A stretch of 64,000 nucleotides of DNA from Halobacteriovorax sp. HLS (lineage in GTDB: Bacteria; Bdellovibrionota; Bacteriovoracia; Bacteriovoracales; Bacteriovoracaceae). Below, one piece after another: positions 8,049-12,837 of this stretch. A program made the position numbers and the translations under genes. Each line of letters opens with the position of its first letter. Position 1 is the stretch's first letter. Under the pieces are notes generated by a model, which did no database searches, was not told where the DNA came from, and was given only the letters and a program-made list of their open reading frames with translations. The stretch is taken from NCBI RefSeq assembly GCF_004006665.1, contig NZ_QOCL01000001.1, forward strand, positions 248,001-312,000, read 5' to 3'.

Positions 8049-8882
8049 TTACCTATTCAAACTTTCTAAATGAAAATCTATATGCTCTTTAATGAAGCTT
8101 GAAATATAGAAATAGCTATGATCATAACCTTCCCGATATTTGATACTGACTTCTTGTCCAACACTCTTTGCTGCTTCTACTAAATTCTCAGTTAACAAAT
8201 GTTCACTTAGGAATTCATCATTAAGACCCTGATCGATTAGAATAGTGTCTTCTCTTTTGTTACCTGCTAAAAGTAATTCTGTTGCATCATAACTATTAGC
8301 TCCAAGCAATTCTTCACCTAGATACCCTTTAAAAGCCTTCATTCCCCAACTAGACATAAGAGGGTTTACCATTGGCGAGAAAGCGGAGACACTTTTAAAT
8401 AACTCTTTTTCCCTGATGCCTAAAACAAGTGCACCATGACCTCCCATAGAGTGACCCATAATAGAAATTTTCAGAGCGTTGAAGTTGTTCTTTAAAATCG
8501 CAACAATATCTTTGCAAATATAGTCATACATTTGATAATGATCTTTATACCCTTGCGTAGTAGCATTGAGATAAAACCCCGCCCCAGATCCAAAATCGTA
8601 AGAATCGTGTTCATCTTTTAAATTAAGACCACGAGGAGAAGTATCTGGGCATATAATCATTGTGCTAGAATCTTTAAGACAGCGCTGTGATCCAGCTTTA
8701 GTTATGAAGTTCTCCTCATTACAAGTAAGACCAGATAGCCAAATGATTGCACTATCAATCGTCTTAGATGCAGGAAGAAAGACCGAAAACCTCATCGTAG
8801 TTTTAGTCGACAGAGAATCATGCTCATAGTAAACAGTCTCTCCATCAAAAGTTTTATTCTTTTTAATGACTCTAATATCCAT
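8049..8882 (-). CDS. fghA: S-formylglutathione hydrolase
   Basis: A 277-residue esterase-D-type alpha/beta hydrolase that splits S-formylglutathione into formate and glutathione, the last step of glutathione-dependent formaldehyde oxidation. Family marks are WLSGLTCNEENFITKAG near residue 50, the PDTSPRGL block, the nucleophile Ser in GHSMGGHGAL and the C-terminal GYDHSYFYISSF with the catalytic His. Length is normal. The gene lies 9 nt after the dehydrogenase gene that makes its substrate, which supports the assignment. The start follows AGGAATAAT. Confidence 0.95.
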   Translation of the reverse strand: MDIRVIKKNKTFDGETVYYEHDSLSTKTTMRFSVFLPASKTIDSAIIWLSGLTCNEENFITKAGSQRCLKDSSTMIICPDTSPRGLNLKDEHDSYDFGSGAGFYLNATTQGYKDHYQMYDYICKDIVAILKNNFNALKISIMGHSMGGHGALVLGIREKELFKSVSAFSPMVNPLMSSWGMKAFKGYLGEELLGANSYDATELLLAGNKREDTILIDQGLNDEFLSEHLLTENLVEAAKSVGQEVSIKYREGYDHSYFYISSFIKEHIDFHLESLNR

Positions 8883-8891
8883 ATATTATTC

Positions 8892-10022
<1,131 letters not shown>

Positions 10023-10182: not shown

Positions 10183-11547
10183 ATGATTAGAACTCTTATC
10201 TTAATTTTATTTCTTAATTTATCGTCATGGTCAGCAGACCTCTATCTTTACGATGATACTGGATCTTTTAATGATGAGTTCTCAAAAAATATTCTCACGA
10301 AAGACTTAAAGGACGGAGAAAGAATCTTCTTAAAAGATCGCTCAGTTATTTACAAGGGCGTTCTTGGAAGCGGTAACACAACGCTTATTCTAAAAGTAAT
10401 TGATCCTGAATCTAATACGGAACTAGCACTAAGACTTCCTCACGGTAATGAAGAAAAGAACTTTCTCATTAGTGATGGGAAGCGATTCATTAATTACACT
10501 TACTCTGGTTTCAATGAACTACAGGAAATGAAACTACCTATACCTAAGATACATGAGTTTCAAAAAGACTCTTACTTACTAGTAGATCTTATCGAGCATG
10601 ACTTTACTCTAAGAACTTTCTTCGCTAGAAATGAGCATATAGATGAAGTTTTAAAAACCAAGGTGGTTAATGCTCTGGCCGAGTTTTCAAAGAAGTCTGC
10701 AATATACGAAACAATCGGAGACTTTCACTTAGAACAACTCGTTTACTCCATTGAAAAAGATAAATGGTTCCTACTAGACTGGGTATCGGGTCACCAGCTT
10801 GCAAGACTTCCATCATCACCAAATATATTCAAGTATCATCATATCGATGATAACCGTTTTCAATTGGATGAAAATGGAAAAACTATTTACACTCTTAATA
10901 CTGCTGGAAACTCTAAGAAAGTAGAAAGAGAAATTAGTGAATTCGAGCGAGATACATTAAATTTCATTAAAGAACAAATTGAAGAGCAAAGAGTTAAACA
11001 GGTCGCTATCGATGAAGCAAGGCTGGAATCACTAAAGCTTGAATTAAGTAAACTGACAAACAAAGAAGACATTTTAGAAGTTTATAAGAATAATAGCTCC
11101 AATCACCTTGCATCCTTTTATACTCTCTTACAAAAGGACTTTATCAACAATCATCTGTCTAAATTTCCGCAAGGCAAACTTACTTCAGAGGAATTGGATT
11201 CTCTATTAACGAATCTCGGGAAGTTCTCTCCTTATTACTTCTCTCAATTCACAGAGAAAATTCTAAGTAGTATAAATGATTTAAATGCCTTTATGATCTT
11301 GTACGACAAGATTAATGAAATAGGACTAGATGAAGAATTAGAAGACGATGTGGCCATAGCAATTTCTAAGAATATTGAAAGAATACTCTCAAATACTACG
11401 AATGATCCATCTGCGCTTAAAACAATTGAAGAGCTCAAAGGGAGTTTCGGAGTCATTAACTACCGAACGAGAGATTTACTATCCAATGCTCAAGAGTACT
11501 TACTCCCAAAAAATAGCTGCAATAATATAATTTCAAGCTTCTTCTAA
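10183..11547 (+). CDS. Exported kinase-fold-like protein with coiled C-terminal half
   Basis: A 454-residue protein with a signal peptide (residues 1-18, ending SSWSA). Residues about 50-205 look like a protein-kinase/APH-like fold: a glycine-loop-like strand GVLGSGNTTLILKV (59-72), a strand LALRLP where Arg84 occupies the usual Lys position, a hinge-like YLLVDLIEH (131-139), a catalytic-loop-like GDFHLEQ (179-185) resembling the GDLHxGN of APH/choline kinases, and LLDW (197-200) in the metal-binding Asp position. The usual Asn is Gln and the usual Lys is Arg, so it may be a pseudokinase or an unusual enzyme. The rest is helical and unrecognised. The YgjP-type gene follows after 10 nt. Confidence 0.55.
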   Translation: MIRTLILILFLNLSSWSADLYLYDDTGSFNDEFSKNILTKDLKDGERIFLKDRSVIYKGVLGSGNTTLILKVIDPESNTELALRLPHGNEEKNFLISDGKRFINYTYSGFNELQEMKLPIPKIHEFQKDSYLLVDLIEHDFTLRTFFARNEHIDEVLKTKVVNALAEFSKKSAIYETIGDFHLEQLVYSIEKDKWFLLDWVSGHQLARLPSSPNIFKYHHIDDNRFQLDENGKTIYTLNTAGNSKKVEREISEFERDTLNFIKEQIEEQRVKQVAIDEARLESLKLELSKLTNKEDILEVYKNNSSNHLASFYTLLQKDFINNHLSKFPQGKLTSEELDSLLTNLGKFSPYYFSQFTEKILSSINDLNAFMILYDKINEIGLDEELEDDVAIAISKNIERILSNTTNDPSALKTIEELKGSFGVINYRTRDLLSNAQEYLLPKNSCNNIISSFF

Positions 11548-11557
11548 ATGGAAAATT

Positions 11558-12073
11558 ATGAGCAATAGAGATTACTTTCAAGGATATCCAGATCACTTAA
11601 GAAAACAAGTGAATGAGTTGATAAATAGTGATCGACTCAGACCATATCTTTTAAAAAAGTATCCTAATTCTCACCAAATTAATACAGATAAACTACTCAA
11701 CACATACGCAAATTCTTTAAAACAAAAATATATGAAGAAGTCAGCGCAAATTGACAAAGTCGTATATGAAAAACAAAAGGATCTTGTTTTGAATGCTCTT
11801 GGAACTCATACTTTTGTGAGTAGAAATCATGGAGGAAGATTAAAGAGTAAACATGAAATTAGAATAGCGACAAGCTTAAAAGAGGCTCCACAAGAGATGC
11901 TAGAAATGCTTGTTGTCCACGAACTAGCTCATTTTAAAGAAAAAGATCACAACAAGGCCTTCTACAAACTCTGTGAATATATGCTCAGCGATTATCATCA
12001 AATTGAGTTTGATATGCGACTATATCTAGCACTACTAGATCAAGGAAAAAGACTATATTCTACGAAAGATTAA
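11558..12073 (+). CDS. YgjP-like zinc metalloprotease-domain protein
   Basis: A 171-residue protein. The C-terminal part carries a gluzincin-type motif HELAHFKEKDHNKAFYKLC, with the HExxH zinc ligands and a downstream His, as in the YgjP/DUF45 (WLM-like) family. It has no signal peptide. The family is widespread and largely uncharacterised, and a peptidase activity is only inferred from the motif. The gene follows the exported kinase-like gene after 10 nt and probably shares its transcript. Length is slightly below that of many YgjP proteins. Confidence 0.8.
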   Translation: MSNRDYFQGYPDHLRKQVNELINSDRLRPYLLKKYPNSHQINTDKLLNTYANSLKQKYMKKSAQIDKVVYEKQKDLVLNALGTHTFVSRNHGGRLKSKHEIRIATSLKEAPQEMLEMLVVHELAHFKEKDHNKAFYKLCEYMLSDYHQIEFDMRLYLALLDQGKRLYSTKD

Positions 12074-12147: not shown

Positions 12148-12837
12148 ATGAAATCTTCTCTTATAGTATTTTTCACCTTCTTTCTCTTAACAACGCTTAC
12201 GCAAGCCTCCACTAGAGAAGGTATTAGACTGATGACTATGAAGAATCATCATGCTTTAGAATACGCGCAAGTTAAGAAGCTTTTATTTTCAATAGTGGAC
12301 AATATAAAGGGACAAGTCTGTAGCGCCTACACTCCTAGCCAATGCAAAGAGAGATACCAAAGAGATATTAATCAAGCTCTCGACAGTAAGTCTCATCAAA
12401 ACTTTAAACTAAATATCGAACACACCTGGCCTCAATCTAAAGGAGCAAAAGAGCTTCCTGCAAATAGTGATATGCACCACCTCTTTGTTACAAGTAAAGA
12501 GTCTAATAGCAAAAGAGCGAATCTTCCATTTTGTGATGCTGTATACGACTACTGGCAAATGGATGGAAGTATCCAAGGTTTTGATAACTTTTCACAGGAC
12601 TGCTTTGAAGCTCAAGACCTTCATAAAGGAAATGTGGCCAGAGCAATGTTCTACTTTTCTATTAGATACAACTATCCTATCGATTCTCATCAAGAAAGTG
12701 TCCTTAGAAGCTGGCATGAATTAGACCCTGTAGATCAAAGAGAGATTGAAAGAAATTTAATCATTCAAAAACTACAAGGAAACTTAAATCCATTTATAAC
12801 AGACCCGAACTTCGTTAATTTAATAAAAGACTTTTAA
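12148..12837 (+). CDS. Secreted endonuclease I family nuclease
   Basis: A 229-residue protein with a signal peptide (ends TTLTQAS). It has the EndA/NucM-type His-Me-finger core: the metal/catalytic block NIEHTWPQS, then DMHHLFVT, then NSKRANLPF. Such enzymes cut DNA and RNA non-specifically in the periplasm or outside the cell. In predators, secreted nucleases digest prey nucleic acid; that role here is inference from the suspected lineage. The mature protein contains several Cys that could form disulfides. It has its own 74-bp upstream gap. Confidence 0.9.
   Translation: MKSSLIVFFTFFLLTTLTQASTREGIRLMTMKNHHALEYAQVKKLLFSIVDNIKGQVCSAYTPSQCKERYQRDINQALDSKSHQNFKLNIEHTWPQSKGAKELPANSDMHHLFVTSKESNSKRANLPFCDAVYDYWQMDGSIQGFDNFSQDCFEAQDLHKGNVARAMFYFSIRYNYPIDSHQESVLRSWHELDPVDQREIERNLIIQKLQGNLNPFITDPNFVNLIKDF

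Follow-up and report, generated by a model that had tools for sequence, protein, structure and literature searches.

A predicted exported kinase-fold family of Bdellovibrionota with a conserved alternative active site

Introduction

Can a bacterium make use of a protein-kinase-like fold outside its cytosol, and what becomes of the nucleotide site if it does? Such folds have, to our knowledge, rarely been described outside the cytosol in bacteria, and the question is raised by an open reading frame in a 64,000-nucleotide stretch of the Halobacteriovorax sp. HLS genome, hereafter the window. A sequence-only reading of the window had seen in its product an export signal followed by a degraded kinase-like core, in which Lys and Asn at two key positions were replaced by Arg and Gln. 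Here we ask whether that core is decayed or different. If a whole phylum exports such proteins with a conserved alternative site, nature would have tested for us which residues a kinase can do without, and such a family may serve as a signal or a weapon while the predator lives inside its prey.

Results

The gene and its surroundings

The gene for the kinase-fold protein (Table 1) and the YgjP-like gene that follows it probably form one transcript. The YgjP neighbour is retained in G003, alone among the loci read, and is not adjacent to a family member in L003 or L015. No conserved neighbourhood or common operon was seen in loci L014, L015, L017, L018, L002, L003 and L023, and the loci read give no hint of a substrate. 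The endonuclease I further downstream also begins with a signal-like N-terminus. As the kinase-fold protein is encoded by a single gene with no obvious operon partner, the purified protein should suffice for a direct test of nucleotide binding.

Table 1. Features of the kinase-fold gene and its neighbours, in window positions
Feature	Position	Strand	Basis or remark
CDS of the predicted exported kinase-fold protein	10183..11547	+	454 aa; opens at the sole in-frame ATG
Signal-peptide-like N-terminus, residues 1-17	10183..10233	+	Sequence, hydrophobicity, flank charges
Protein-kinase-like domain, about residues 20-272	10240..10998	+	AlphaFold2 model, Foldseek, VIA
Glycine loop L61-G-S-G-N-T-T67	10363..10383	+	Family alignment
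R84, catalytic-lysine position (VAIK, PKA K72)	10432..10434	+	PDB-sequence profile alignments
T106, alphaC Glu position (PKA E91)	10498..10500	+	PDB-sequence profile alignment
Catalytic loop D180-FHLE-Q185 (PKA D166 and N171 positions)	10720..10737	+	Family alignment
D199, metal-binding Asp at the DFG position (LLDW in this protein)	10777..10779	+	Family alignment
C-terminal helical domain, residues 253-440, alpha-solenoid-like	10939..11502	+	AlphaFold2
C446 and hydrophobic tail CNNIISSFF	11518..11544	+	Sole Cys of the protein
YgjP-like metallopeptidase	11558..12073	+	PF01863, E 1.4e-13; starts 10 bases past the stop of the kinase-fold gene
Endonuclease I, separate ORF after the YgjP-like gene	12148-12837		PF04231, E 1.1e-30
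Two genes divergent from the kinase-fold ORF	8049-8882, 8892-10001	-	Esterase-like and alcohol-dehydrogenase-like products, by eye only

The kinase fold

The AlphaFold2 model, built from a seven-row alignment, has a pLDDT of 84.2 and a pTM of 0.77, with low confidence at the N-terminus and at the C-terminal Cys tail. Foldseek matches it to 425 PDB chains at E<=0.001, and the 50 listed are all kinase folds by their descriptions. VIA gives PRPK/Bud32 as the best match (Z 13.9, 199 residues aligned, 3.8 A; identity 7-8% in the PRPK alignments), followed by APH(2'')-IVa (Z 12.4), RIO1/2 (about 11-12) and methylthioribose kinase (about 10.9), the best rows covering model residues 24 to 271-276. Fam20C and HipA are not among the best 50 VIA rows, an absence that is no evidence against likeness.

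Sequence profiles, which are independent of the model, also find kinases. The family profile (A4) matches protein kinases among PDB sequences with a best E of 9.1e-4; the first 32 rows are all kinases, as are 56 of the 60 listed out of 82 matched, many of these kinase rows being one protein, TTK. Profile-profile comparison with 20 APH-type open reading frames of related genomes reaches a probability of 94 in the N-lobe (E 1.3e-7; reversed control 0.1), and comparison with 20 Ser/Thr-kinase frames (Pkinase) a weaker 48 (reversed control 0.0); phmmer with the single window protein against PDB sequences gave nothing useful. The fold is therefore secure from the predicted structure together with the model-independent profile matches: the kinase-like core first proposed is borne out, and the window protein almost certainly has a protein-kinase-like (PKL) fold. 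It has two lobes, a glycine-rich loop, a catalytic Asp and a metal Asp, by which the PKL superfamily is recognised. The elements lie in the order first claimed (glycine loop, ALRLP with R84, hinge YLLVDL, GDFHLEQ, LLDW), the catalytic loop has the APH/choline-kinase flavour ascribed to it, and these motifs are not chance, because homologues keep them and the family profile matches kinases.

Distribution of the family

Relatives occur in 9 of 59 genomes searched with the single window protein, in 22 of 129 genomes of its taxonomic family searched with an 11-row profile, and in 55 of 368 Bdellovibrionota genomes (41 of 181 genera) searched with a 31-row profile. The last count is approximate in both directions, because it was a loose first look and at least one hit is false: L083 is a conventional Ser/Thr kinase, the rest of which is ATPase-like. 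Across 84,980 species, each represented by one genome, the pattern matched 49 times and 7 relatives came to light, six of them from Bacteriovorax, Bacteriovoracaceae, Halobacteriovoraceae or Bdellovibrionales; Bacteriovorax- and Bdellovibrio-type groups have a predatory life style. The viral_contigs scan gave 13 pattern matches and no relatives, and tblastn against plasmids and phages likewise found none.

Pfam and NCBIfam hold no named family for the window protein or 31 relatives, and APH (PF01636) is not matched by the window protein at E values up to 10. Among the 25 sub-threshold families listed, of 33, for the 31 members, APH is absent and no member passes a kinase Pfam cut-off. The kinase names that appear below threshold (PrkT at E 0.001, MAD6, APH(6), Bud32 and LxmK) do so in one member each, and we did not count them as evidence. 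A literature search judged by title and start of abstract, with subscription papers and preprints outside its scope, found no description of this family; Bdellovibrio and pseudokinase met in no paper searched, and the same was true for Bdellovibrio with kinase-like, secreted and prey. This is a new, unnamed family inside a known fold.

Export

An N-terminal 10-mer of hydrophobicity above 2.0 is present in 52 of 53 family members, compared with one APH-type and one Ser/Thr-kinase frame out of 20 of each from related genomes. In the sole exception, L016, the hydrophobic start and the remainder of the protein lie on either side of one in-frame TAA (L016:2560-2760). The flanking charges are N-in/C-out in 45 of 52, and none of the 52 has a second hydrophobic or membrane-like segment or a lipobox. 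A simple signal-peptide rule is passed by 24 of 31 members, cleavage sites being imperfect in some; in the window protein cleavage likely follows S15-W16-S17, before A18 ([STA]-[WF]-[SAG] in homologues), as read by eye from the alignment. By these heuristics the proposed export signal stands as a Sec signal peptide with n-, h- and c-regions, and export of the family is very likely.

The active site

Conservation was counted over 52 domains, that is, the 56 aligned minus L083 (Ser/Thr kinase), L046 and L079 (truncated) and L047 (a duplicate of L036); the tail and hydrophobicity counts reach 53 through L082, which is absent from the 52, and L019 was excluded from the structure alignment for a run of N. 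The PDB profile alignments put R84 on the VAIK Lys, and this position is Arg in 48 domains and Lys in four. Position 185 is Gln in 46 and Asn in the other six; 51 domains have D180 and as many have D199, and the glycine loop retains G64 in 50 and G62 in 44. Over the 52 rows, conservation within the kinase domain is highest at six columns, D199, D180, W195, G64, R84 and Q185; the rows were gathered with the family's own profile, so that column conservation is partly built in. The alphaC position (T106 in the window protein) is Glu in only two domains, 46 having T, Y, F or S there, and the two Glu rows are the fusion proteins L080 and L081, both of which also have K84 and N185. The HxD His is missing from all 52, position 178 being I, V, L, A or F. 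Set against the canonical ePK residues, the family thus departs at the VAIK Lys-alphaC Glu pair and at the HRD...N Asn.

These positions are held across a very deep divergence, the terminal branches having a median length of 1.11 changes per column. When columns 84 and 185 are left out of tree building, the tree implies that Asn and Gln were exchanged at least five times and Lys and Arg at least twice, counts that are approximate because support is poor at most inner forks (33 of 49 open); the repeated Asn/Gln interchange suggests one role common to both residues. The Arg and Gln read at the two key positions are real, but the degraded core is not borne out: these residues and the two Asp are family-wide, Asn and Gln interchange, and Arg is normal in choline-kinase-like kinases. 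The absent alphaC Glu is a further departure that the sequence-only reading had missed, and because it is missing from 50 of 52 domains the site is better called remodelled than eroded. To judge by the alignment, the alternative site is coordinated and conserved, remodelled rather than decayed, and the window protein may function as an enzyme outside the cell instead of being the remnant of one.

Individual members differ. In L091:289-1185, an open frame, the catalytic Asp has become G and the metal Asp N. It alone among the 52 has lost D180, and D199 is lost there too, as a true pseudoenzyme would be expected to show, which makes L091 a candidate true exported pseudokinase. L036 holds two family members in tandem (L036:110-1450 and 1477-2823), both with Lys at the lysine position but with Gln at the Asn position.

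Helical domain, Cys tail and fusion proteins

Residues 250-454 modelled alone (pLDDT 87.5) form an alpha-solenoid-like array of helices with no significant fold match: Foldseek goes no lower than E 0.11, and the highest VIA score, a Z of 9.2 to a designed helical repeat, is below the meaningful level for helical folds. This domain is lineage-specific, and short family members are without it.

The sequence-only reading made no mention of the tail. A Cys lies at most 18 residues from the C terminus, before a short hydrophobic tail, in 43 of 53 members, and for most of these 43 the open frame contains no other Cys past residue 60; in the window protein C446 falls within the last nine residues. 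Over the window and 21 loci (L014-L018, L020, L080-L094), the mature protein has just one Cys, placed in the last 18 residues, in 9 of 18 exported family frames and in none of 62 other exported frames. Of the ten members without it, L040 and L090 stop unusually early past the metal site. L086, L087 and L094, a sub-branch from another taxonomic family of the phylum, have no C-terminal Cys and none after residue 60. The tail is independent of the helical domain, because short, long and large fusion members have it in common; it could be a tether, a disulfide partner or dimer contact, or a recognition peptide.

The fusion members are large exported proteins of 1755, 788 and 867 aa (L080:906-6170; L081:3012-5375, minus strand; L082:1346-3946). 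They have in common an N-terminal domain without a Pfam match, which to the eye looks phosphoribosyltransferase-like and contains motifs such as YFLARDGELLYD and LLVDTGFSGTI. At the C-terminal end each carries the Cys tail of the family and a kinase domain that retains Lys, Asp, Asn and Asp; the alphaC Glu is also in place in L080 and L081. All three begin with a signal-like segment, and since these canonical members carry it too, export preceded or accompanied the residue change.

Discussion

Possible functions

The reading that we favour, tentatively and at somewhat below an even chance, is that of a Sec-exported, Mg-nucleotide-binding kinase-fold protein that is possibly an active phosphotransferase. 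Kinase-like domain, lineage-specific helical domain and Cys tail would leave the cytosol through Sec as one protein. Mg-nucleotide would be held by the glycine loop, R84 (for K72), D180, Q185 (for N171) and D199, and a phosphoryl or nucleotidyl group would be passed to a target in the envelope or the prey. The site of action would be the predator's periplasm or a prey compartment during predation, with ATP leaking from the prey as the only plausible supply, and the Cys tail would tether or dimerise the protein through a disulfide or a partner. Mg-nucleotide binding and group transfer are what we infer from the conserved positions, and they differ in strength: a functional nucleotide site is likely, while catalysis is an evenly balanced question. 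The missing alphaC Glu, a Gln at the Asn171 position for which we found no precedent and the want of a kinase Pfam match above cut-off among the families listed all argue against the favoured reading. ATP is scarce outside the cytosol, which also counts against it. The fullest form of the proposal, that predators secrete active phosphotransferases with an Arg-Asp-Gln-Asp site lacking the alphaC Glu, fed by prey-leaked ATP, directed at prey or envelope targets and each held by a single C-terminal Cys tail, we regard as a long shot.

The same departures at the K72, E91 and N171 positions would suit an exported pseudokinase, one that binds nucleotide or another ligand without transfer and whose role, like that of Fam20A towards Fam20C, is to scaffold a partner or regulate it allosterically. 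The helical domain and Cys tail resemble interaction modules, and an ATP-binding secreted pseudokinase has its precedent in Fam20A (PMC7948968). We take this to be a serious possibility, though we would sooner doubt it than adopt it, for 51 of 52 domains keep D180, and as many keep D199, across very deep divergence, Asn and Gln interchange repeatedly, and a K-to-R exchange by itself need not abolish activity, as choline-kinase-like kinases show (PMC1821047). A domain with a dead nucleotide site, its fold reused for binding, for example, an envelope sugar, peptide or protein, would accord with the lack of ATP outside the cytosol, with the loss of the alphaC Glu in 50 of 52 domains and with the loss of the HxD His in all; it predicts, however, that the site should be lost, and the nucleotide and metal residues are the domain's most conserved positions, so that we consider it unlikely. 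Still more improbable is that the hydrophobic N-terminus is a membrane anchor with the kinase domain in the cytosol. The imperfect cleavage sites of some members (24 of 31 pass the simple rule) and the heuristic basis of the export call leave it a slight chance, which the N-in/C-out charges in 45 of 52 and the complete lack of a second hydrophobic segment diminish further.

Comparison with known kinases

Structurally, the window protein comes closest to Bud32/PRPK and the RIO kinases, its best matches by VIA (Z 13.9 and 11-12). These are cytosolic and have Lys and Asn in place, unlike the window protein. The choline and aminoglycoside kinases (CAK; APH PF01636, choline kinase, FadE type) are also close. 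The D-x-H loop is alike (compare GDLHAGN and HRDFHSRN in related APH-type proteins), as are the N-lobe profile (probability 94) and the structure of APH(2'')-IVa (Z 12.4). From these the window family differs in being exported (by prediction), in having no Pfam match, in Gln for Asn171 and in lacking both the alphaC Glu and the HxD His. It has DWx where ChoK and FadE have DWE, and T67 where ChoK has an Asn that pairs with R72.

The Arg at the K72 position is common to the window family and the ChoK and FadE types. In Kannan et al. 2007 (PMC1821047), the Lys is conserved as Arg in most CAK-like subfamilies, choline kinase and FadE types included, active kinases with Arg at K72 are on record, the exchange co-varies with glycine-loop and DFG changes, and E91 becomes Phe in CAK-chloro and HSK2. 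Among the 20 APH-type frames of related genomes, whose letters were read from uncurated mafft columns, two (L095 and L096) have Arg at the lysine position, some have Lys and others different letters; L096 has its Arg alongside an intact HGDLHAGN loop. Because CAK kinases and some related APH-type frames carry Arg there, R84 is no sign of decay. It is the Gln at the Asn position, for which we found no precedent, that is the odd feature.

Atypical kinases of Legionella such as Lani_1194, potential injected effectors, resemble the window family in the K72-to-R exchange and in having no identifiable E91, but all the new families described with them retain N171 (PMC9758233). Fam20A and Fam20C are eukaryotic, unlike the window family, and are not among the best 50 VIA rows, but they too place a kinase fold outside the cytosol. 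By analogy, Fam20A, which is secreted, binds ATP and activates Fam20C although itself a pseudokinase (PMC7948968), would be the nearest biological counterpart of the window protein, with the opposite outcome of no catalysis.
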